From positions 1 to 23,179 of the forward strand of contig CAJVGD010000053.1 of the NCBI GenBank assembly GCA_910890315.1: a DNA stretch of 23,179 nt, read 5' to 3'. This document shows positions 2-23,179 of the stretch, piece after piece (the stretch's first letter is position 1; each line of letters begins with the position of its first letter). Source of the stretch: Serendipita indica DSM 11827. Lineage: Eukaryota > Basidiomycota > Agaricomycetes > Sebacinales > Serendipitaceae. A model generated the notes under the pieces. It saw only the letters and a program-made list of their open reading frames with translations, did not search any database and was not told the DNA's origin. The translations under genes were made by a program, and so were the position numbers.

Positions 2-601
2 CGCCATGACTACTTCCTGGCGGCATGCAAGGTGGAGAGGTTCACCTGCCGATTCTGTGCGCAAGAGCACAGCTCTCGGGACTGTCCGGACAAAACGCAG
101 ACCAAATGCACCCCATGCGGGTCCAGCCGACACTCCTCCGGGGATGAAAGGTGCATAGAAAGCAAGTCCAGACAGGACAGGCAAGCGGAACATGCGCCAG
201 AAACGAGATCCAAATTCTTCTTCACCAAGGACCGATGGACATATAACGAGTCAGTCAATGCCCCATAGAACTCAGGATACCTGTGCCCAGAGATCGAGAC
301 CGAGACCACGCAAGAACAAGCAGGCAAGCAGCTCACAACGGCGGCTGCCAACGCCTCACAGGGAGTCACCAACAAGTCCAGAAAGATCAACCAGACAAAA
401 AACCGACAGATAACACTTGCCCAATACAGCATCCCAACGCAAGTTGCACGAAGCATCCAGCACCCCGGGCCAACTCCCAAGACCCAAACCACCCCCAATT
501 CATTGCAAGAAACGACCTCTTCACCATCCTCACTGCCCCCCGCTCAAACCCAGCCATCCATCATGACCAGTAATGCCTGGCCAACTGACCCCTCTGCATG
601 A
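2..601 (+). pseudogene. LINE ORF1 (gag-like), C-terminal part with zinc knuckles
   Basis: This is the C-terminal end of the nucleic-acid-binding ORF1 protein, which packages LINE RNA. The frame is open from the window edge. Two Cys/His knuckles are visible: CRFCAQEHSSRDC (CX2CX3HX4C) near 47-88 and CTPCGSSRHSSGDERC (CX2CX4HX6C) near 107-154. A TAG at 266-268 interrupts the frame, but the same frame stays open afterwards for 110 codons of Gln/Thr/Pro/Ser-rich sequence, ending with TGA at 599-601. That TGA overlaps the ATG of ORF2 (ATGA at 598-601), which suggests ORF2 translation by termination-reinitiation. The tail assignment rests on this frame continuity and overlap, not on homology. The TAG fits a CAG to TAG change. 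Confidence 0.8.
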
Positions 602-3600
602 ACAACGGCACCCCACTCACAACAAGCAGTTATCTAAGAATCATACAGATCAACCTCAGAAAATCCTTTGACGCCCACGACAAATTCATCAACACAGCCT
701 CACCGGACGACTGGGACGTTATTGCAATCCAAGAACCAGCACTCAACTCCCTCGGCAACACTCGGGCTAACAGGAAATGGCAGTCGTTTTACCCATCCAC
801 CAAGGCTCACGAAGGCCACGGCAGAATACGTGCTGTAATGCTAGTCAGCACACGCGTCGGTGCGTGCATGCAGATAGATGTTGATTCAAGCGACATTGTA
901 GGAATAAGAGTGGGTACTGCATCGGGCCTCTGCACCATCTACAACATCTACAACGAAGGCACCAGCAACGATACATTGGACCAGCTCACCCAACACCTCG
1001 AAACGCGCAATATGTCAACATGGGCCAACCAGCTCGAAGTATGGCTTGGGGACTTCAACAGGCACCACCACACCTGGGAGGGGGACAACAACCGTCACCT
1101 ACGCAGTTCGACCGATGCCATCACTCCGCTACTCAACCTGATCATTGAACACGGCATGCAGCAACTCCTACCAGCCGGAATACCCACACGAGAGGAGAAC
1201 GGGAGTCAAACTAGGCCAGACAACGTGTGGGCATCAGACGATATCATCCACCGACTCGTAGAGTGCAATACATGGCCAGACCTTCGTCCAACAACAACGG
1301 ACCACATCCCAATCGCCTCCATCATCAACCTCTCAGTTGCGAAAGTGGCCATCACGCCAAGGCCAAACTACAGAAGGACAAACTGGGAGAAATTCCGGGA
1401 AGGCATGGAAGACGCAGTCAAGAACGACCCAAGACTGGCAATCGAACCAACGCGCCCTGAGGAGCTGGAGCAGCTTGTCGAGCTACTCACAGGTTACATG
1501 CAGACAAAGCTCAAGGACATGACCCTGCTCAGCAAGGACCCAACATTCCGCAAGCCGTGGTGGAACAAGCAATGTCAGGATCTTCACAAATGCAAATGCC
1601 AAGCATACACAGAGTCGCGGTACTGGCAAGCATCCCCAGCCCACCCAAGTCATCAGCTTTACAAGGCACTGTGCCAAGAGATGAAGGAGATGGTACGAAA
1701 GAGCAAGGAGGCATTCTGGTGGAAGTGGATCGACAAGGCATCCAACGCCGACCTATGGAACATTAACCGCTTCATCAAGCGAGGCGCCAACGACGGAAGT
1801 AGCAAGAGAATCCCCCCACTCAAAAAGCCGAACGGCACACTAACGCAAAGTAACGAGGAGAAAGCAGAGCTACTATGCGACGCATTCTTTCCACCTCCAC
1901 CTGCACTCGCACTCCCCAGACCAAGGCCGGCACCTCAAACTGCACTTCCTCAGTGGACACCATACTCGATAAAGAGGGTGAGCAAGGCAGTTGGACGTCT
2001 CAAGCGCGACAAGGCACCAGGCCTGGATGGTATCCCAAATGCAGCAATTCAGGAAGCACTCCCAGCTATCAGTCCCATCCTCAAGAATGTATTCAATGCG
2101 GCCATTCGACTCCGGCACATTCCAAAGCAGTGGAAGGAATCAACTACAGTGGTCCTATGAAAGCCAGGGAAGCCAGTGTACAATATAGCCAAAGCGTACC
2201 AACCAATCGCGCTCCTCAACACCCTCGGAAAGCTTCTCTTGGCACTCATGGCGGAGGACCTCACCTACATGTCCAAGCACTATGCACTGCTCCCACACTC
2301 TCAGTTCGGTGGTCGACCAGGAAGGACAACAACGGACGCCCTTCACCTTCTCACAAGCACAATCAAGAAGGCATGGAGGGAGTCAAAGGTGGCCAGCGCA
2401 CTGTTTCTCGACATCCAAGCAGCATTCCCCAATGTTGTCAAGCCAGTCCTCATGCAGAACATGAGAGCAAAAGGGATCCCAGAGGAGTATGTGCAGACTC
2501 TCGAGAACATGCTGACAGGCAGATCCACGCACCTCAAATTCGACAAGGTGCACTCTGCACCCCGCGCTATCACCAATGGGAACAGCCAAGGATGCCCACT
2601 CTCAATGATCCTCTACCTATTCTACATTGCCCCACTACTGGAGATCGCAAACAGCAAGGACCAGCTCACCCTCGGGTTTGTGGACGACTCTACCCTGATC
2701 GCCATTGGCCAGAACTTCCATGACATGCACCTCGGACTGAAGGACATGATGGAACGTGAAGGAGGTGTACTAGACTGGTCACGTTCGCACCACTCACCAC
2801 TCGAGAACAACAAACTCGGGCTTGTCGACTTCACCATGTCATCCGAAAAGTGCAAAGGCTCACATCCCCTGGTCCTCGAGGCAAAGGACAGCAATGGCAG
2901 AATGTCAACAGTAACAATTCAACCTACCGACAGTTGCAAGTTACTTGGAGTGGTGATCGACCAGTCACTGCGGTGGAACAAGCACCAGGAGCTCGTGCAC
3001 ACAAGGGCAGTAAAGTGGACCTCACTATTCTCGCATATACACAGGGCATTCCATGGCCTCCCAATCCGCTCAGGCCGCCAACTCTTCAACTCCGTTGCCA
3101 TTCCTTGCATCACATACGCCACAGACATCTGGTACACCCCACTGTACACCAAGCCAGACTCCGCACGCCGGATGGGATCCGTAGCCATCACCAAGAAGCT
3201 GCAAGCCGTCCAACGTAGAGCCGCCATCGGTATCACAGGCGCTATCCGCACAACAGCAGGAGATACCCTTGATGCGCACCTCAATATGCTACCAATCAAA
3301 GAAACTCTACGCCTCACATGCCAGAAGGCAGCGGCCCGGCTGGCAAGCCTGCCCGCTACCCATCCTCTCTCCAAATTTGTGAAACGAGCATCAAGAGGAC
3401 TCCTCCAGAGGCACAACGCCCCCCTACATTGCATCTTCCACTCCATCGACTCCAAAGTAGATGACCTCAAAGCCATCACCCCAGCGTCACGCAACCCCAA
3501 TGCCACTAACCCATTCACTATCTCAATAGAGGAGTCGAAGATGTTAGCGAAAGAGGCGGACAACAACAGCAACGGCAACAGCGAGCAGGTAGTAGTTTAT

Positions 3601-4581
3601 ACGGACGGCTCAGGAATGGAAGGCATGATAGGAGCAGGTGCAGTACTCTACAGAGACGGAGTACGGATAAGGTCAGCAAGATTCCTGCTTGGAGAAGACA
3701 TGGAGCACACGGTACACGAAGGAGAACTTGTTGGAATTGCACTCGGAGTCCAGCTAGCCAAGATGGAAAGGATCATCATACCACGTATCAAGATCAGCCT
3801 TGACAACCAGGCAGCAATACAAGGAATGGAGAACGTCAGTGCCAAAGCCGGCCAACACATCATCCACAAGATCCACAGAGCAATAGACAAACTGCGCAAC
3901 AATCAAAAGCGTAGACAAGAACTTGTAGAGGCGAGCGATGACGAGACGAGGATCAATCGATCGACTCAGATCACTCTCACATGGGTCCCAGGTCATGAAG
4001 GGATTGAGGGTAACAAAGCAGCGGACGAGGAGGCCAAGAAGGCCATCACAGATGGATCATCCACAGCAGCAACACTCCCACCATGGACGAAGGACACCCT
4101 CCCACAGAATATCTCGGCACTCAGATAGGAACTCAAACTTGCAGCAAGGAAGTCAGCACATGACAAGTGGAAATCTTCAGCACGGTATGACAGGACCAGG
4201 CCCATTGACAAGACAATGCCATCCAACAAATATCTCCAAATCACAGACAAGCTAACGAGAGCAGAAGCAGTGGCACTTATTCAGCTACGTACAGGACATA
4301 TCGGACTGAACAAGCATCTGAACTGCATCAACAGAGTGGATGCACCATGGTGCCCACACTGTGGAGAGGGAAATGCAGAAAACATAACTCATCTCCTCCA
4401 CATCTGCCCAGCGTACAACGCAGCGCGAGCCAAATGGGAAGGAGCATTGCGAGAGAAGACGAGAGAACCAGTGGAGATACTAGGGACAAAGGAGGGAATC
4501 AAGGAGACATTGAAGTTTATCAGGAGGACGGGGAGGTTGAAGATGGGACGGGAGGATACAAACGGAAGGGAAAGAGAGTAA
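598..4581 (+). pseudogene. LINE ORF2: endonuclease, reverse transcriptase, RNase H
   Basis: This is the replication protein of the LINE, 1327 codons in one frame. Residues 14-240 form an endonuclease/exonuclease/phosphatase fold, with QEP near 45, GDFN near 151 and TDH near 234. Residues about 480-790 are the reverse transcriptase, with FLDIQAAF (catalytic Asp about 605), NSQGCPLS and FVDD (about 694-697). Residues 998-1150 are RNase H, with YTDGS (Asp about 1003), HEGEL, SLDNQA and HEGIEGNKAAD. The C-terminal motif CPHC-X9-HLLHIC starts near 1252. Two in-frame stops break it: TGA at 2158-2160, just before KPGKP of the reverse transcriptase, and TAG at 4126-4128, after RNase H. Each fits a C to T change (CGA to TGA, CAG to TAG). 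ATG 598 is the first start after an in-frame TGA at 586 and overlaps the ORF1 stop. Confidence 0.93.
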
Positions 4582-6589: not shown

Positions 6590-7275
6590 GCTGTGCGTCA
6601 ACATGCTAAGCACACCTTTTCTTGCACCCTTTTACTCTGTCCTCGCTTCATCGTCTTCAACATCCTTTGCCACCCGTCAATGCCACTCGTCTACGTGGCA
6701 CCTGTCATGCTTGTCCACATCGCATCTGGCCGTCAATGCCACTCATCTATGTTGCATCTGCCGTGCTCATCTACATTGCGTCTGGCCCCTTGCCTACGCT
6801 GCATCTCGGTCATTCATCTACGCTGCCCTAGCTTGCCCTTACTACTTCTCCATTGTCGGTGCTGTTTGGTTAGTGTTTCTATCTGCCACGTATCACGCCG
6901 CTAACACCTTATCTTACACCCTTTTACTCCGTTCTTGCCGCGTTGTCTTCAACATCCTTTGCCACTTGTCAATGCCACTCCTCTACGTTGCATCTGCCGT
7001 GCTCATCTATATCGCATCTGGCCACTTGTCTACGCTGCATCTCGGTCACTCATCTATGCTGCCCTAGCTTGCCCTTTACTTCTCCATTGTCGGTGCTGTT
7101 AGGTCAGTGTTTCTATCTGCCACGCATCAACACGCCACTAACGCCTTATTTTACACCCTTTTACCCCGTCCTCGCTGCGTTGTCTTCAACATCCTTTGCC
7201 ACCTGTCAATGCCACTTGTCTACGTTGCATCTGCCGTGCTCGTCTACATTGCATCCGGCCGCTTGTCTACCTGCA
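6590..7275. repeat. Diverged tandem repeat, three units with an internal 56-bp duplication
   Basis: Three units are anchored by GTCTTCAACATCCTTTGCCAC at 6653, 6945 and 7182, giving periods of 292 and 237 bp. The first unit is longer because a 56-bp segment starting GTCAATGCCACT is duplicated inside it (6676 and 6732). Other shared blocks are CTACGTTGCATCTGCCGTGC and CTGCATCTCGGTCA. Open frames here translate to Cys/Leu/Ser-rich strings that simply echo the repeat, so no gene is called. Confidence 0.85.
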
Positions 7276-7760
7276 TCCTTCTTACTCGTCCCTTGATTTT
7301 CATTCCAACCCACCATACACGCATCAATAGTAAGACCTGGCATCTGGACTGCATCTTGTCTGTCATGTAATTAGTTGTTTTCAATTATAGCTTTTAGCGA
7401 TTATGACAAGGAATCAGCTTAAGATTTTATATATCTATATCTGTGACTTGGAGTCTGGTGATGACGGCTTTGCACACCAAAAATACCTTGAGCCATCTTT
7501 CGAGCTTAGGCCAGGTGTTGGTGCCACAGGACATATGAGCTTGAGTAGTTGTATGAGGTAGTATGCATACAAAAACTTTGCATTTGGATTTGTGTATACA
7601 ATGAAAGATGAATGAATCAGAGTTATCCTTTTTTTCTTGCACTAGGCATATATGAATATAACAGTGGGAAAATGGATGAAAACAGTAAGGATATCAATGT
7701 ACATATAAGCATGTGACTACAACTGAGAATTCGTACAAGTAATTAGCAGTAAGAGCAGTT
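7276..7760. other. AT-rich spacer, no gene seen
   Basis: The sequence is AT-rich with simple TATATCTATATCTG-like stretches near 7427-7442. A minus-strand open frame of about 70 codons (7427-7642) has no recognisable motif and is not called. Confidence 0.5.
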
Positions 7761-9727: not shown

Positions 9728-9801
9728 CTACATCTAGCATACCATCAGTCGCCATAGAAAAACTGACACTACAAACAAAGAGATATTGAGAATCAACTCA
9801 C

Positions 9802-12095
9802 CATTGGCCAAACTCCAGATTTGAATTGTCCTATCGAAGGAACCAGAGACAACTTGTGTGCCATGTGGTGAGAATGCGACAGCCATGACCTTATCTTCAT
9901 GACCTTGGAGTGGCTCTCCCAATGGCTGGCCAGTCTCTGCATCCCACTGTCGAATTGTCCTGTCCAAAGAGCCAGAGACGATTCGTGTGCCATCTGGTGC
10001 GAATGCGACAGCATTGACCGAGGATTCATGACCTTGGAGTGGCTCTCCCAATGGCTGGCCATTCTCTGCATACCACTGTCGAATTGTCCTGTCCAAAGAG
10101 CCAGAGACGATTCAAAGCATCTGGTGAGAATGCGACAGCGTTCAATGAGGATTCATGACCTTGGAGTGGCTCTCCCAATGGCTGGCCAGTCTCTGCATCC
10201 CACTGTCGAATTGTCCTGTCCCAAGAGCCAGAGACGATTCGTGTGCCATCGGGTGAGAATGCGACAGCCATGACCGAGTCTTCATGACCTTGGAGTGGCT
10301 CTCCCAATGGCTGGCCAGTCTCTGCATCCCACTGTCGAATTGTCCTGTCCCAAGAGCCAGAGACGATTCGTGTGCCATCGGGTGAGAATGCGACAGCCAT
10401 GACCGAGTATTCATGACCTTGGAGTGGCTCTCCCAATGGCTGGCCAGTCTCTGCATCCCACTGTCGAATTGTCCTGTCCAAAGAGCCAGAGACGATTCGT
10501 GTGCCATCGGGTGAGAATGCGACAGCCATGACCGAGTCTTCATGACCTTGGAGTGGCTCTCCCAATGGCTGGCCAGTCTCTGCATCCCACTGTCGAATTG
10601 TCCTGTCCAAAGAGCCAGAGACGATTCGTGTGCCATCGGGTGAGAATGCGACAGCCATGACCGAGTCTTCATGACCTTGGAGTGGCCTCCCCAAGGACTG
10701 ACCGGTATTTGCCTCCCATAGTCGAACGGTGCAGTCCTTAGATCCAGAGACGATTCGTGTGCCATCTGGTGAGAATGCGACAGCCTTGACCGAGTCTTCA
10801 TGACCTTGGAGTGGCTCTCCCAATGGCTGGCCAGTCTCTGCATCCCACTGTCGAATTGTGCTGTCCAAAGAGCCAGAGACGATTCGTGTGCCATCTGGTG
10901 AGAATGCGACAGCGTTCACCGAGTCTTCATGACCTTGGAGTGGCTCTCCCAATGGCTGGCCAGTCTCTGCATCCCACTGTCGAATTGTGCTGTCCAAAGA
11001 GCCAGAGACGATTCGTGTGCCATCTGGTGAGAATGCGACAGCGTTCACCGAGTATTCATGACCTTGGAGTGGCTCTCCCAATGGCTGGCCAGTCTCTGCA
11101 TCCCACTGTCGAATTGTCCTGTCCAAAGAGCCAGAGACGATTCGTGTGCCATCTGGTGAGAATGCGACAGCGTTCACGGAGGATTGATGACCTTGGAGTG
11201 GCTCTCCCAATGGCTGGCCAGTCTCTGCATCCCACTGTCGAATTGTGCTGTCGCTTGAGCCAGAGACGATTCGTGTGCCATCTGGTGAGAATGCGATAGC
11301 CATGACCTCGCCTTCATGACCTTGGAGTGGCTCTCCCAATGGCTGGCCAGTCTCTGCATCCCACTGTCGAATTGTCCTGTCCAAAGAGCCAGAGACGATT
11401 CGTGTGCCATCTGGTGAGAATGCGACAGCCATGACCTCGTCTTCATGACCTTGGAGTGGCTCTCCCAATGGCTGGCCAGTCTCTGCATCCCACTGTCGAA
11501 TTGTCCTGTCCCTTGAGCCAGAGACGATTCGTGTGCCATCTGGTGAGAATGCGACAGCGTTGACGAAGGATTCATGACCTTGGAGTGGCTCTCCCAATGG
11601 CTGGCCAGTCTCTGCATCCCACTGTCGAATTGTCCTGTCCTTGAGCCAGAGACGATTCGTGTGCCATCGGGTGAGAATGCGACAGCGTTCACCGAGGCTT
11701 CATGACCTTGGAGTGGCTCTCCCAATGGCTGGCCAGTCTCTGCATCCCACTGTCGAATTGTCCTGTCCAAAGAGCCAGAGACGATTCGTGTGCCATCTGG
11801 TGAGAATGCGACAGCCATGACCTCGTCTTCATGACCTTGGAGTGGCTCTCCCAATGGCTGGCCAGTCTCTGCATCCCACTGTCGAATTGTCCTGTCGCTT
11901 GAGCCAGAGACGATTCGTGTGCCATCTGGTGAGAATGCGACAGCGTTCACCGAGAATTCATGACCTTGGAGTGGCTCTCCCAATGGCTGGCCAGTCTCTG
12001 CATCCCACTGTCGAATTGTCCTGTCGCTTGAGCCAGAGACGATTCGTGTGCCATCTGGTGAGAATGAAACCGCTGTGACACTACCCTGGTGACCT
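9802..12095 (-). repeat. Array of 18 near-identical WD40 repeats, 129-bp units
   Basis: Eighteen 43-codon units encode one WD40 blade each, with consensus [20 protein letters not shown] and then [23 protein letters not shown]. They would fold into beta-propellers forming a ligand-sensing surface. Most units appear nearly identical in sequence. Variation is concentrated just after GHE, at the residue before AVAF (N, M, K or T) and around GSxDxT. One unit (10678-10806) is an outlier reading KDCTVRLWEANTGQSLGRP. Four consecutive units between about 10240 and 10670 share a CCC Pro codon where most others have CCA. Unit 4 (near 11640) is one base short and unit 16 (near 10111) two bases short relative to their sisters. 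Confidence 0.95.
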
Positions 12096-12311
12096 AGCAG
12101 CGTTCTGGGAAGCTCACGAAATGTTTCTTCAAGCCCTCTGGTCACAATTAACGAATTCATATACTCCTTTAAACCCTCCGTATGAAGTACCGACTTCCGT
12201 GGACTGAATGGGAGAGATGAGATGTAGATGTGTGGTGCGCTGTCTTGGATTGGTACAGAGAATGCCATCAAAAACCGTCTGATGTCATTCATCCGACCTC
12301 GGATCCCTTGC

Positions 12312-13865
12312 TCAAGCTATCTGTTGCTTTAGTAATCGGAAGGTCTCAAATATTCCACGCACACTCTTATGTTGCGTCGCAGCTCGCATTCCAGATACTG
12401 CACGCATGACTCCTCCATTCACGCTGAGGATCTCCATCCAATAGAGTGCGAATGGACTTTGGACTATACATGCCAGCTCATTCCTTAGCCTGCGGCCCCA
12501 GTCACTGTCCATTGCGGCCACATGGAACGACCAGTGCAAACTAGCATAGCGAAGCCTTCGCGAAATGAATTTCGCCACCCGGGCGTCAAGGTCTGTAATC
12601 TGCCTATTCAGATAGAAGGATGACTCGATTTGGCAAATATTAAACTTGAGCCCCTCCTTGCGCGATTTGAGAGTGTGAAGACACCATGATGTGGCTTGGC
12701 CATGTGCACGCGCGATGTATGATAAGATTCTGTCGCCGCCGATAATTTCGGTGCTACAGCGTCGTCGAAGATATTCGAAAAAGGTGGGGTGACGAAACTG
12801 TATCAAGTGCGTGATCGGATCCTCCTTGAGTACACTTCCCAGAATCCGTACCAGCGCTTGGCACTCCTTGTCCTTTGGTATGCTGAACAAGGTCTTCCAA
12901 GTCATGGGTGGTGAGTGGTTCGAACGCAGCAAGCAGCATACCGAGCATTTCAATGATGCCTTTTTGGATGCTGGCTCGATGCGTTCAAAGACGAGGTCAT
13001 AAACGTCGTCGATAGTCCCACGCCGATCGATAGAGACCAGTTGATTATATGTATCCTCAAGAGAGATCACCCTCGTCTCCTCGGCAAGGATTTGGCAGGC
13101 AGTGCTTGCCCAAATGAACAGGCCGCTGGCTTTCTCGACCAATCTCTGTCTCTTATCGAGTGCCAGGACTCCATCCAGCACTTTGTGGACGTAGATCGCA
13201 ATGTCTTCGATGTTATCGCGATGGCTAGGATCGTAGAGCCGATCTTTCAACTTGACCTTGATCGAAAGAGGTTCTAAAACCTTTTCTATCACAGGGTCTG
13301 GCCGACTTGTGATGAATATCCGAAGATTCTTGCTCTCCTGAGCGGCAGAAGCGAGAGTCTCTACCAGTTTCCTTCTCTGTGGTCCAGACTTGCATTCGTC
13401 AAGTGCGTCTAAGACGAAAACTACTCGCTTCTGTTGATGCTGGAGGGGACCGGTGATGAGCATTCGAAACTGTTGATCAAAAGAGGCTCGTAGGAGAGCA
13501 GGATTCCGCTTTACTATCTCCGCAATCGGTGTCCCAAGCTCCGGAATATGTTGAGCGAGTTCCCTCGCCATGGTCGAGCAAAACTTTTCGGTGTCTGAGC
13601 TTTCGCTGCTTGCCATGGAGAAGAAGAATCCGCCGCCTAAGATTCCTTGCTTCTTCCACTTCTCCATTGCAGTCATCGCGACGGTCGATTTTCCAGAGCC
13701 AGCTATATCACATAGCCAGAAGATCGGTTTTTCTGATGAATCGCCATCGGCCCATTGCGAGATTGTCTCGAGGACAGCCTGGCGAGTTCCTTTGTAGACA
13801 GGTGGTATGGACAGAGGATGGGGCGAATGCGACTACCGGCAGTTGAGATACGAAAAGCGCGTCGT
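12312..13865 (-). other. NACHT domain of the NLR
   Basis: This is the nucleotide-binding oligomerisation switch. It opens with QLPVVAFAPSSVHTTCL and GTRQAVLETISQWAD, then PIFWLCDIAGSGKSTVAM (Walker A, about 13683-13703). VVFVLDALDECK (Walker B, about 13391-13430) and RIFITSRPDP (sensor region, about 13300-13325) follow. The remainder is helical, with YDLVFERIEPASKK and FRHPTFFEYLRRR as in other fungal NACHT proteins. A shift of one base at about 13791 separates TTCLQ from GTRQAVL; the second NLR in this window reads KTCLPGTRVPILQEIRQW without a break there, which supports a real or artefactual one-base insertion. The NACHT frame ends in TGA at 12312-12314, and the WD40 frame resumes at about 12292 one base out of register. 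Confidence 0.9.
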
Positions 13866-13943: not shown

Positions 13944-15161
13944 CTACTCGTGGGTCAGGAAAGAATCAGCGATGAGTATGTTACGAACTGCGCAAGTTAT
14001 TCTCCATAAACCATTTTTTGTGCACGGCATCGGGGGCGTTCTCAGCGCACTCCGTGAGATAGTAAGCAACTGCTTGGTAATCTTCACTCTCTTCCGTCTG
14101 GAATCTGACAAGGTTCTGGTGATCGCTATGGAGTACGACCGCAATAGCGTTTTGATCGCCAGCGATCACCGCCGAGTGATACGGAACATTCTATAAGCCA
14201 GTTAGCACCCACCCATAAGACGATTTAGCGCACCTACCAAACGTATCTGCTGTTCGTCGGCTCCGGTGCTGTATTCCTCGCAGAAGAAGACGCTGTTTAT
14301 CTTTTTACTCGCGGTGAGATACAAGCTCTGGATGTTTTCGAGTTCATCCGAGTGAGCGTGAAGGTTCTTGACAATGACTTCTGTTGATTCCATACATGGT
14401 GCTGCCAGGCGAACGATCTTCAGGAGCGTTTCTTCTACGCCGGAATGCGGGTTCCAAAGAAGAGGATGGAATGGGTGGATACCACGATATTTCGTAGGCC
14501 GTCTTTTGATTCCAGGTCCTCATTGTTGCATATGACAAGCGCCTATGAGACCGTCAGGGTCAAAATGTAGTGGACATCCTCGGACGAACCCATTTGAGAA
14601 TGATGCCTCCCAAATCGTGAGCAACAAAGATGATGGGGCGCTAGGGTGATTAGGGAACAAGGCACCGGTTTACGGATGCCACTCACTCGAGGAGCATCTT
14701 TACGCTTTCGTAAAATAGCTTGAGCCAGACCGACGGCGTGGCGGCGCATAGTCTGGGTCGATACGCACTCCGTACTGTGAGTGTCGGCGTCGTAGCCATA
14801 GGTCAGGATACGGGCACGAGGCAATGAGGACGGCAAGAATTGGCGTAGCCAAAGAACGCCATCGTCTGTCATCCAAGTCTTTTCTCTGTGACCATTCAAG
14901 CCGTGGATTGCTATGATACTGGAGTGGGGAGGTCAGCACGAAGCGACTACAGTGCCCCGAATGTGCTTACTCGACGGTGGGATCCTCTGGGCATACCAAT
15001 TCCAGGAATCCAAGGTCTTCCTTCTTGGTTTTGGACGTAGAGGATTTCAATGTTCTAGGATGTTCACTTGCAGCAGTCCGATCGTTCACTCGTTGCCAAA
15101 GTCGGGCAACATGATTTAGGCCTCGTGGAAATGGCCGTGCTTTGCCTTGCTCTTGTGACAT
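13944..15161 (-). other. Alpha/beta-hydrolase (lipase/SesB-like) N-terminal domain
   Basis: This is the N-terminal effector-type domain of the NLR, encoded by the first five exons. Visible in order: LGFLELVCPEDPTVD then IIAIHGLNGHREKTW (oxyanion-side HG motif), WLRQFLPSSLPRARILTYGY, FVAHDLGGIILKW (nucleophile elbow, exon 14640-14590), a region matching the usual FFGTPHSG motif but with the frame broken near 14448, and VVLHSDHQNLVRFQ (candidate catalytic His). Lipase-like domains of this kind are known at the N-terminus of fungal NLRs. The elbow carries Asp (codon GAT) where GXSXG-type esterases have Ser. Two introns (14543-14589 and 13944-13988) use an unusual GTTCGT donor and are the least certain boundaries. 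Confidence 0.75.
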
Positions 15162-18741: not shown

Positions 18742-19439
18742 AGTATACTCTGTTCAACGCTTTGTGTAACGTTCTAGCCGTGGGAAATGGAACAAGCCGG
18801 ATTCGCCCCGACTTAGCCGTCAGACCACTAGACTATAGTGTCCCTCTTTTCCCTCTAAAGCGTCACAGTACCTATGACCCCCGTTACTCAGGTATTCCTA
18901 ACCTGGTCGGCCGGGCTCTGACCTGTAAGGTGAGCCAATCCTTGGTGCAGGGCCCAGGGGGACAAATCGCCGCTCTAAGCCCTTCTCGGTGTGCTCCGAA
19001 TAACGTATAAGAGTGTTCTGCTGTCAGATAAGTTCTATTGTGTAAGAATATTGTCATATTTTAACCCGGCGTCTCTTATAGGCGTCTTGGAAGTCTTAAT
19101 GAACCTCAACGGAATTGGAGCTAAGGAACGCATAGGCCGACTAGAAGTGCATGTAATATTATTCTAAATCAAGTCTGAAAAAGTTTGAGGTATATAATTC
19201 GAGCCTCTGTCCTGCTGGAAGGGCCTAGTTAACCCGCCGTGTGCGGAGATGAAGGACTGAAGCAGTCAAATGGTTACTAATAATGCATGGATGCTTGTAT
19301 GCGTCTGTAATTTCATCGATAGACTGCATATATGTCGCATATTTGGCCATCATGTGTTCCTAGATTACCACAAAGCCGCTACTACTCTTGGACATATGTA
19401 GAGACCACAGCTAGAGAGCGCCTTGCCTGCAATTTTTGT
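18742..19439. other. Spacer, no supported gene
   Basis: An open frame at 18735-19010 (91 codons, starting inside the hairpin) has no recognised motif. The rest is AT-rich with many stops. It may include far ends of the flanking LTR element, but no boundary could be fixed. Confidence 0.45.
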
Positions 19440-19443
19440 CAGA

Positions 19444-19602
19444 CTAACAGACAACGTGTAGTTAGCTCACAGCGGTCGTTGATTAACCGAATCAAATACA
19501 CTACCTAACAGACAACGTCTAGTTAGCTAATGTGGGCGGTGAGCATCGATCATACGAGTGAGCAAGTGGCAATAATTCACAGCAGTCGTGAATTAACCGA
19601 GT
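19444..19602. repeat. Direct repeat inside the putative copia 3' LTR
   Basis: Two copies start CTAACAGACAACGT at 19444 and 19505. Both end in a CACAGC-GTCGT-ATTAACCGA block, at about 19490 and 19600. The second copy is longer by about 46 bp between these blocks. Confidence 0.7.
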
Positions 19603-21414: not shown

Positions 21415-22681
21415 ATGCATCGCCGAAAAGCCAGGAACTCAGAATTCGACTCTTCGAATTCCTCAAGAACAAATACACCTTCTCATGACCCAGACATTGC
21501 TTATCAGCGAACACGGGATACCCTCATCGAGGCTGTCAAGCTCGTCAAGGCGGGGACCGAGGCTACTTCATTTCTGGGACCTCTCAAAGCAGTTTGCGAG
21601 ATTTCCCTTCTATTCCTTGAGATAACCAGGGTACGACACGCTTAGCATCACTACTGAGTTTCTATCTGATTACGCCGTAGAGTGTAAACGAGAACACCAA
21701 AGGACTCAGAATACTCAGGGATAGTCTTGAATTACATATATACATCTTGGATGAAGGATATCTCCAAGCTGTCGAGGACGGACGCATGGACCGGATGCCC
21801 ACCGCGCTCAAGGATTTCAACAATGCATCGAGAGATTACATTGTGTAGGACCCGAGGTCAAGCTTTTGAATGTTTTGCTGAAATTGTATAGCGCTCTGAA
21901 GGGCACACTCTCCAAAATGGATGAGTTGAAGCACGGCAGAGATCAAGGCGTCAAAGGATTTTTCAGAAAGATCACGGATGCCAAGATCGATACCGGAAAT
22001 ATTGCAGAATACAAACAGGAAATCTTACAAGCTACGCGGGTATTCGAGGTATGAATGTCACGTGGAGCCAGCTTCGTATTGAGCTATTCGCAATAGGATA
22101 CGACCAAGCTCTGTCAAATTCAGCTACAAGCAGAAGGTTAGCCCGATTCACGTCACCCTCCGACTCGTGTTGATTACCTACAGTGTGGAAAGTAGCCCAA
22201 CTCGGCCCCGAGAAGCCTCGTCCGATGGGTACTCAGCATAAGACGTGTCTACCGGGCACACGCGTACCGATTCTGCAGGAGATTCGGCAATGGCGTCTGG
22301 ATTCCAACGCAGACAAGCGCATCTTTTGGCTCTGCGACGTTGGCGGGTCTGGAAAGTCCACGGTCACATTGACGATGTGCGAGGAATGGGATAATACCAA
22401 AGATGTTCTAGTTGGTCGGTTCTTCTTTTCGAAGAATGCTCGGCAGACATCAGAGACGGATGATTTCTGCTCCGTCATCGCAGGGGATATTGGTGCTCAA
22501 AACGAGACAATCCTAGAGCAAATAAAGATGATAAAAGAAAGAGATCCTCACCTTCTCATACGAGGACTGCGCCATCAGTTCACCAAACTCATCGAAGAAC
22601 CATTGCAACTTGCAAAGACGGATATTGTCCTCGTGATCGACGCAGTGGATGAGTGCAAGGAGGAGCAGGACAGTCAGTCAG
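21415..22681 (+). pseudogene. Second NLR gene, 5' part: helical N-terminus and NACHT start
   Basis: This is the beginning of another STAND/NLR receptor. Proposed exons are 21415-21630, 21681 to about 21846, about 21850-22048, 22097-22136 and 22184-22681, with introns of 47-50 bp. The N-terminus is helical and amphipathic: AYQRTRDTLIEAVKLVKAG, FLGPLKAVCEISLLFLEITR, ALKDFNNASRDYI and VLLKLYSALKGTLSKMDELK. It resembles the helical leader of other agaricomycete NLRs, but no named domain is claimed. The NACHT start reads KTCLPGTRVPILQEIRQW, RIFWLCDVGGSGKSTVTL (Walker A, about 22342-22362), FFFSKNARQTSETDDF and IVLVIDAVDECKEEQD (Walker B, about 22624-22660). A TAG and a frame change near 21847-21855 are unexplained. 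NACHT similarity stops abruptly at about 22681, before the sensor motif, where a motif-dense insert begins. Confidence 0.82.
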
Positions 22682-23179
22682 GTACGAGACAAGTTTGTCG
22701 GCAAGGACCACCACGCCAGATACTAATTTGTATCTGGCGTGACGTGCCAGCGCAGGAGAATAAATCCTGGCGAGAAATTTGAATGGGATAGGGTTGATGA
22801 GCTTGCAGGGGCACACCGCTGGCAGGACATTTGACAAACTATGAGCACCCGCTGGCGAGGAGACGGGACCCGGCCCCCATGTGCCGGCGAAGGCCATCGC
22901 AAGTTTGTCTACGCTGGCAAGATGCTCCGGTCCCTACCACCTCTAGGCGAATTGCACATTGTAAGCATGCTGAAACGAGGTATCAACATACTTATATCTA
23001 TATACAGTGTGAATACAAGGGATTTGCACCGTTTGACTTGCCCGCGTAAGATTGTCTGTAAACTTGCTTCCGCTGGCGAGCATACCCACAGGATTCGCCA
23101 CCGGGCAAATAAACAACTTGAGCCGCTAGCAAGTCATTTAAGGATTCAAACGTATAACAAAGTATCTATACTATGTAAA
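22682..23179. mobile_element. Motif-dense insert, probable non-autonomous element (unknown family)
   Basis: No coding sequence continues the NLR here. A short motif close to CCGCTGGCRAG recurs in many variants at about 22697, 22765, 22815, 22848, 22882, 22911, 23071 and 23124, with an inverted copy at about 22744. AAGTTTGTC occurs at about 22691 and 22900, with an inverted GACAAACT at about 22833. A perfect hairpin of 12-bp arms (CACGCCAGATAC, 22712-22723; GTATCTGGCGTG, 22730-22741) lies near the left edge. Dense subterminal repeats of this kind are typical of some DNA transposon ends. The right end is beyond the window, so terminal repeats and target duplication cannot be tested. Confidence 0.5.

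Follow-up and report, generated by a model that had tools for sequence, protein, structure and literature searches.

Layout of the NACHT/WD40 gene

The window analysed here is the whole of contig C51 (23,179 bp) in a genome assembly of Serendipita indica that totals 24,708,602 bases in 55 contigs. A phosphate transporter encoded in this genome matches the PDB sequence 7SP5, the S. indica transporter PiPT, over 251 residues, and the alignment is identical except at three residues near the piece's ends. A gene on its minus strand is, judged by its sequence, a NACHT/WD40 NOD-like receptor (fungal NLR/STAND class), the N-terminus of which is probably sesB-like. Read from its 5′-side, the gene consists of the following parts.

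14450-15161, minus strand: N-terminal exons (15161-14971, 14918-14687, 14640-14590 and 14542-14450; splice sites by sequence) of a probable sesB-like alpha/beta-hydrolase-type domain
12963-13832, minus strand: NACHT domain (PF24883, 5.5e-28; PF05729, 5.8e-14; both over the cut-off)
12363-12962, minus strand: remainder of the NACHT-side ORF, from an alignment of seven copies
12317-12362, minus strand: probable 46-nt intron of phase 0, read from the sequence GT...TTACTAA...AG and near-identical in close copies
12095-12316, minus strand: linker between the NACHT side and the propeller, containing PHIYISSLPFSP, from a sequence search of the genome
11580-12094, minus strand: WD40 units 1-4, frame A (unit 4 at 11707-11580)
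10161-11579, minus strand: WD40 units 5-15, frame B (structure model made of units 5-11)
9734-10160, minus strand: WD40 units 16-18 and the C-terminus to the stop, frame A (unit 16 at 10160-10034; PF00400 on 9803-10075)

The same contig carries a second NACHT ORF (22183-22782, plus strand), a LINE-type retroelement (598-4128, plus strand) with an endonuclease ORF followed by a reverse transcriptase with RNase H, and, at 6732-7277, a 237-bp tandem repeat of 2.3 copies with internal 24-bp periods, which a 56-bp repeat adjoins.

The architecture of the gene is observed directly, weakly so for the N-terminal domain; this domain scored E = 0.0066 and 16.4 bits against PF05057 (DUF676), under the curated cut-off of 20.3, its best match in the PDB was at chance level (E = 0.93), and the N-terminal pieces of a relative, locus L072, were without a Pfam match at E ≤ 1. 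With E ≤ 0.01 as the limit, a HET domain (PF06985) was looked for in the first 189 aa and not found. The frame of the N-terminal domain breaks directly after FFGT; FFGTPH.G is present in 27 of the 30 best-matching loci, FFGTRI solely in the window's own locus (L064), and neither in two. The NACHT domain has the P-loop GSGKST at about 13683-13700 (minus strand), and the stretch downstream of it (12363-12962), set against most other copies, lacks a single base at three places and 3 nt at a fourth. Reading the 46-nt segment as an intron explains why the frame changes between NACHT side and linker and why a stop follows; a nonsense mutation before the array was rejected as the less likely reading of this stop.

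At its nucleophile elbow, the sesB-like hydrolase has the motif AHDLGG (14590-14640, minus strand), with Asp at the site where the catalytic Ser would be expected. Among the 30 best loci, the window's own included (L060-L089), this position is Asp in 20, Asn in eight and Ser in none, and the motif is missing in two, a count biased by searching with the Asp form. Domains of the sesB-like type have been reported to be almost absent from basidiomycete NLRs (PMC9815663), and Asp or Asn at the nucleophile, found here in 28 of 30 loci, is not discussed in the accessible text on sesB-like NLRs of Dyrka 2014 (PMC4986451). The family may thus represent an overlooked pseudo-hydrolase branch of basidiomycete NLRs. 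At L072, the same N-terminal domain apparently precedes another type of nucleotide-binding domain, which has GLGGAGKT and looks NB-ARC-like to the eye; this may reflect an effector swapped between receptor types.

TRF reports a 129-bp tandem array at 9823-12066 (17.4 copies, 92% matches) as the sole long array of the window, and cutting it unit by unit on the minus strand gives 18 WD40 units of 43 aa or 129 bp each, unit 1 running from 12094 and unit 18 starting at 9904. The 18 nearly identical WD40 repeats of the preliminary description, made from the letters of this DNA, are thereby real. PF00400 matched in all three array pieces scanned, with 11 WD40 stretches in the middle piece, and the mean pairwise identity over 14 of the units is 0.896, above the threshold of the criterion for high internal conservation (HiC), namely repeats more than 85% identical over at least 100 aa (Dyrka 2014, PMC4986451). 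The residues that had been listed after GH(E/Q), before A(V/I)(A/S)F and at SGSxDxT all agree with the cut units save residue 23 of unit 4, which is unreadable because of an indel. That the rest of the unit is almost constant holds for 16 units, which show few single changes, but not for units 11 and 18, which are divergent outside the variable sites as well.

The array had also been taken as one protein, and here two frame shifts inside it had gone unreported. Unit 4 has 128 nt and unit 16 has 127 nt in a register otherwise of 129 bp, so that the frame changes twice, with units 1-4 in frame A, units 5-15 in frame B and units 16-18 again in frame A. A single continuous 18-unit protein is ruled out by these two breaks; translation of the assembled sequence would run out of the WD40 frame within unit 4, and the copy in this form is unable to encode a whole protein.

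Near-identical copies and their variable codons

An 81-aa query from the linker region (12032-12274) found at least 150 matches in the genome, four of them, the window included, at 100%. Eight copies are at least 94% identical in the linker, and their arrays differ in length: C51 (the window) has 18 units, C23 13, C40 15 and C1 14 (these four at 100%), and C41 has 15, C21 two, C14 eight and C50 18. The order of units varies between the eight copies as well. All eight lie 5-34 kb from a contig end. A subtelomeric location was considered but is doubtful: two of the copies belong to contigs as short as 18 and 23 kb, closeness to an end is shared by several other loci of the family, and the ends are possibly breaks at repeats; TTAGGG was found in none of the five contig ends beside near-identical copies. 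The last 636 bases of C50 match window positions 18897-19538 at 98%; either the duplication extends past the gene or repeats broke the assembly.

Differences among units are concentrated at a few codons. The arrays compared were the best matches of genome searches, a subset of the genome's arrays; 36 rows had enough units, arrays of fewer than six units and each array's last unit being omitted. In the 29 rows above 0.75 mean unit identity (26 distinct, as three overlapping pairs are included), mean entropy is 1.62 at codon 23, 1.56 at codon 7, 1.50 at codon 4, 1.37 at codon 5 and 1.12 at codon 25, and the next value is 0.29. The same five codons lead in the seven low-identity rows, over a higher background.

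These codons also show an excess of amino-acid replacement. In the window alone, without units 11 and 18, pN is 0.347 and pS 0.224 at codons 3, 4, 5, 7, 23 and 25 (pN/pS 1.55), and the corresponding values at the remaining codons are 0.010 and 0.061. For 82 units pooled from the eight copies (59 distinct; first, last and off-length units dropped), pN/pS is 4.09 at codons 4, 5, 7, 23 and 25 (bootstrap 2.65-7.63) and 0.18 (0.10-0.24) outside them, intervals that are too narrow because the units are related, exchange sequence and hence are non-independent; pN at the five codons is 8.5 times the pS of the other codons. When parsimony steps are counted over 90 units (last and off-length units dropped), each observed codon being used once, codons 3, 4, 5, 7, 23 and 25 account for 10 synonymous and 33 non-synonymous steps, or 3.5 versus 2.2 per site. 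With codons seen at least twice, the six codons have 23 non-synonymous and five synonymous steps, and the remainder one and eight (Fisher p = 2.5e-4). Synonymous differences as dense as, or denser than, non-synonymous ones at the variable sites had been named in the preliminary description as what would refute its reading; pairwise ratios, both pooled and in the window alone, point the other way, but parsimony steps per site do show that density. On balance, we read these data as diversifying selection at the variable codons, short of proof of omega above 1. The variable-codon pattern is unchanged in the three copies that lack a frame break in the array (C1, C41 and C14; 31 units).

The positions are those known from Podospora anserina. 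In HET-D/E, codons 7, 9, 25 and 27 are reported as positively selected, and 8 and 26 as constrained (Paoletti 2007, PMC1805685). From the spacing of 18 and the conserved Asp at 26, a register follows in which window codons 5, 7, 23 and 25 correspond to Podospora codons 7, 9, 25 and 27, and the claim that repeat homogenisation is combined here with diversity at surface sites of the HET-D/E type is thus borne out. Variable positions have more recently been given as 10, 11, 12, 14, 30, 32 and 39 (Ament-Velasquez 2025, PMC12222747), equivalent to window codons 3, 4, 5, 7, 23, 25 and 32; at codon 32 (position 39) the amino acid is constant in 90 units, and the other six vary.

Where the variable codons would lie in the folded protein was estimated from an AlphaFold model of units 5-11 (10677-11579), predicted from the single sequence; the best of five models reached pLDDT 94.8 and pTM 0.90, and the other four pLDDT 72-84. 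By fold match, the model is a seven-bladed propeller. Among its first three matches are 7BIE, a designed propeller that its title describes as symmetric and 7-bladed (TM to the model 0.94), and 2YMU, a propeller of highly repetitive sequence (TM 0.93, by query length). Both share near-identical WD40 blades with the array but, as titled, contain no NACHT receptor. Strands in the first modelled unit span residues 6-11, 17-22 and 27-31, so that codon 7 is the second residue of strand a, and codons 4, 5, 23 and 25 fall outside the strands. The five variable codons are thus predicted to lie on a single face of the propeller, within or beside its d-a and b-c loops.

Within a unit, the variable codons fall into two linked groups. 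Mutual information over the 59 distinct units links codons 4, 5 and 7 mutually (p = 0.001 each) and codon 23 with codon 25 (p = 0.003), whereas the six left-right codon pairs give p ≥ 0.087, and a comparison of the entire left set with the entire right set gives p = 0.96. There are 21 left types and 11 right types, and they occur in 49 combinations. Codons 4-5-7 and 23-25 thus behave as two freely reassorting cassettes, although chimeras from polishing could mimic such reassortment. New repeats of het-E and het-R are reported to arise by shuffling of these codon pairs (Chevanne 2010, PMC2873952), and shuffling of this kind would account for the cassette pattern. Twelve of the 59 distinct units are present in two or more loci. 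Units differ on average by 6.8 nt within a copy and by 7.4 nt between copies (p = 0.001), but the mean is 6.4 nt, below that within a copy, when units at one index are compared across copies; the sharing between loci would therefore be due in part to common descent, not to exchange.

Frame breaks and the genome assembly

The frame breaks of the window copy, two in the array, three on the NACHT side and one in the N-terminal domain, have to be seen beside those of its relatives. In the stretch upstream of the array, the seven copies compared (C14, whose upstream part aligns only in pieces, being left out) have 11 deletions of 1-2 nt and no insertion: three each in the window, C40 and C50, and one each in C1 and C21; C41 has no frame break either there or in its array. 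In the arrays, 40 frame-breaking shortenings stand against one lengthening, a count in which some shortenings figure twice, seven belong to L033 alone, and a 16-nt lengthening in C23 was missed. The published S. indica assembly (24.7 Mb, 57 contigs) was built with Canu and Pilon from 324 Mb of MinION data and MiSeq reads (Osborne 2021, PMC8385953); dividing the 324 Mb gives a MinION coverage of about 13-fold. Polishing with short reads is reported to be unreliable in repeats (Polypolish, PMC8812927). Because the breaks are nearly all deletions, as low-coverage nanopore data give, assembly error is likelier than a dead gene, and the frame breaks in the window copy most likely stem from deletions left behind when low-coverage nanopore reads were assembled. 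Random loss in homopolymers may fall short of a full explanation: C51, C40 and C50 each have one unit with the same site shortened (3 short versus 34 full), and loss at this site exceeds that at another GGG, where 0 of 90 units are short (p = 0.023). An excess of frame breaks in high-identity arrays amounts to a trend: a frame change was seen in 14 of 26 such arrays versus one of seven low-identity arrays, a non-significant difference (Fisher p = 0.095; the three overlapping loci were dropped, as were arrays of fewer than five units or without an identity value, C21 and L018), and the low-identity L033 has eight breaks.

It is rather unlikely, if still worth weighing, that the window copy is a pseudogene with real breaks, in whose array exchange with live copies alone would maintain homogeneity, as has been proposed for the NWDp genes of Podospora. 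Such pseudogenes with largely clean WD repeats are reported there (Paoletti 2007, PMC1805685), the array, the NACHT side and the N-terminal domain of the window copy all have breaks, and the short site shared by C51, C40 and C50, the best argument for a pseudogene, could be a broken unit spreading by exchange; the deletion bias (11:0 upstream, 40:1 in the arrays) and the sequencing behind the matching published assembly fit residual nanopore error instead. Polishing of repeats with short reads could make chimeric units, and single residues are possibly wrong. That the whole array is a chimera of assembly and polishing, with a repeat number and variable residues of no real locus, nevertheless seems very improbable. 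Low nanopore coverage and short-read polishing, if the assembly is the published one, would allow it, chimeric repeats are reported in short-read assemblies of such genes (Ament-Velasquez 2025, PMC12222747), and the non-significant difference between high- and low-identity arrays runs in its direction; however, the same codons vary in the break-free arrays of C1, C41 and C14 and also in arrays of other family members, and random error is unlikely to keep to loop codons.

Proposed function of the array

In our estimate, with a probability of roughly 70%, the array serves a fungal NOD-like receptor as its ligand-sensing domain, made of a homogenised scaffold with diversified codons 4, 5, 7, 23 and 25. 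Unequal crossing-over and gene conversion among the near-identical repeats would keep the scaffold constant while changing repeat number and order, and selection would retain amino-acid changes at the five codons of each repeat, so that the string of repeats would spell a binding surface for some non-self ligand. Binding of this ligand would free the NACHT domain to oligomerise, and the N-terminal effector would then be triggered, with cell death as the probable outcome.

The closest parallel is the HNWD family of Podospora anserina (HET-D/HET-E/HET-R), with which the gene shares a NACHT domain, highly conserved WD40 repeats that vary at the same codons, reassortment of codon groups in blocks and, between paralogues, varying repeat number. 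It differs from HNWD in a unit of 43 aa instead of 42 aa, with up to 18 units in the compared copies, in the invariance of position 39 (window codon 32), and in its N-terminus, where a HET domain was looked for and not found in the first 189 aa. The window gene appears from its sequence to work like HET-D/E, yet on account of this N-terminus it would stand outside the HNWD family. Nearer relatives in architecture and high internal repeat conservation are the sesB-like/NACHT/WD40 NLRs listed for Piriformospora indica, that is S. indica, among its 274 reported NLRs (Dyrka 2014, PMC4986451), a study that describes high internal repeat conservation for fungal NLRs generally. An expanded NACHT/WD40 family of the same fungus, 99 NACHT/WD ORFs in a 25-Mb genome, has been reported with non-self recognition as its proposed role (Zuccaro 2011, PMC3192844); diversity at the level of repeats is not treated in the accessible part of that paper. 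The papers listed on NACHT, WD40 or NLR proteins of S. indica and Serendipita and on internal conservation in basidiomycete NLRs include none that, by title or the abstract shown, treats S. indica repeats unit by unit. One NACHT/WD40 gene, PIIN_07414, which is not matched to the window locus, belongs to the 25 genes that S. indica induces most strongly when it colonises roots (log2FC 7.64; PMC8385953, Table 1). The kind of gene is thus already known, in a fungus rich in such genes, and the window copy is one more NACHT/WD40 NLR with high internal conservation.

The preliminary description had gone further and called the array an allorecognition-type sensor. That the gene acts in vegetative incompatibility like het-d/het-e, its repeats recognising an allelic partner in another strain and killing the fusion cell, is unlikely in our judgement, although the selected codons and the mode of repeat reshuffling are as reported for HET-D/E/R; the N-terminus yielded no HET domain in its first 189 aa, at least 150 linker matches and 274 reported NLRs exceed what allorecognition alone would appear to need, and such dynamism has been argued to make more sense for pathogen receptors (Chevanne 2010, PMC2873952). 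The reading as a sensor stands, and allorecognition would be one possible use among several, other non-self sensing fitting at least as well. A further alternative is that diversity at the five codons is neutral, with loops tolerating change and repeat exchange alone making the pattern, which we consider improbable. Synonymous steps per site at the six codons, at least as dense as the non-synonymous ones, agree with neutrality, but a pairwise pN/pS of 4.09 and a pN 8.5-fold above the pS elsewhere exceed what tolerance alone gives, and so, among codons seen at least twice, does the ratio of 23:5 against 1:8.

If the array is indeed such a sensor, then dozens of receptor arrays in a plant-root symbiont, a basidiomycete far from Podospora, have in common the five codons at which they vary. 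More speculatively, and with clear reservation on our part, the genome may keep a rapidly rewritten germline receptor repertoire of dozens of NACHT/WD40 genes with two reassorting cassettes per repeat, in which new surfaces would arise by within-repeat recombination and be common to several loci, and which would be tied to a pseudo-hydrolase branch of effectors that has lost the catalytic serine. Genes of this kind can look broken in assemblies from nanopore and short reads, and their repeat strings need accurate long reads. Should the sensor reading be right, repeat-shuffled sensors would be a wider fungal device, and these arrays a natural library for how the order of blades sets specificity.
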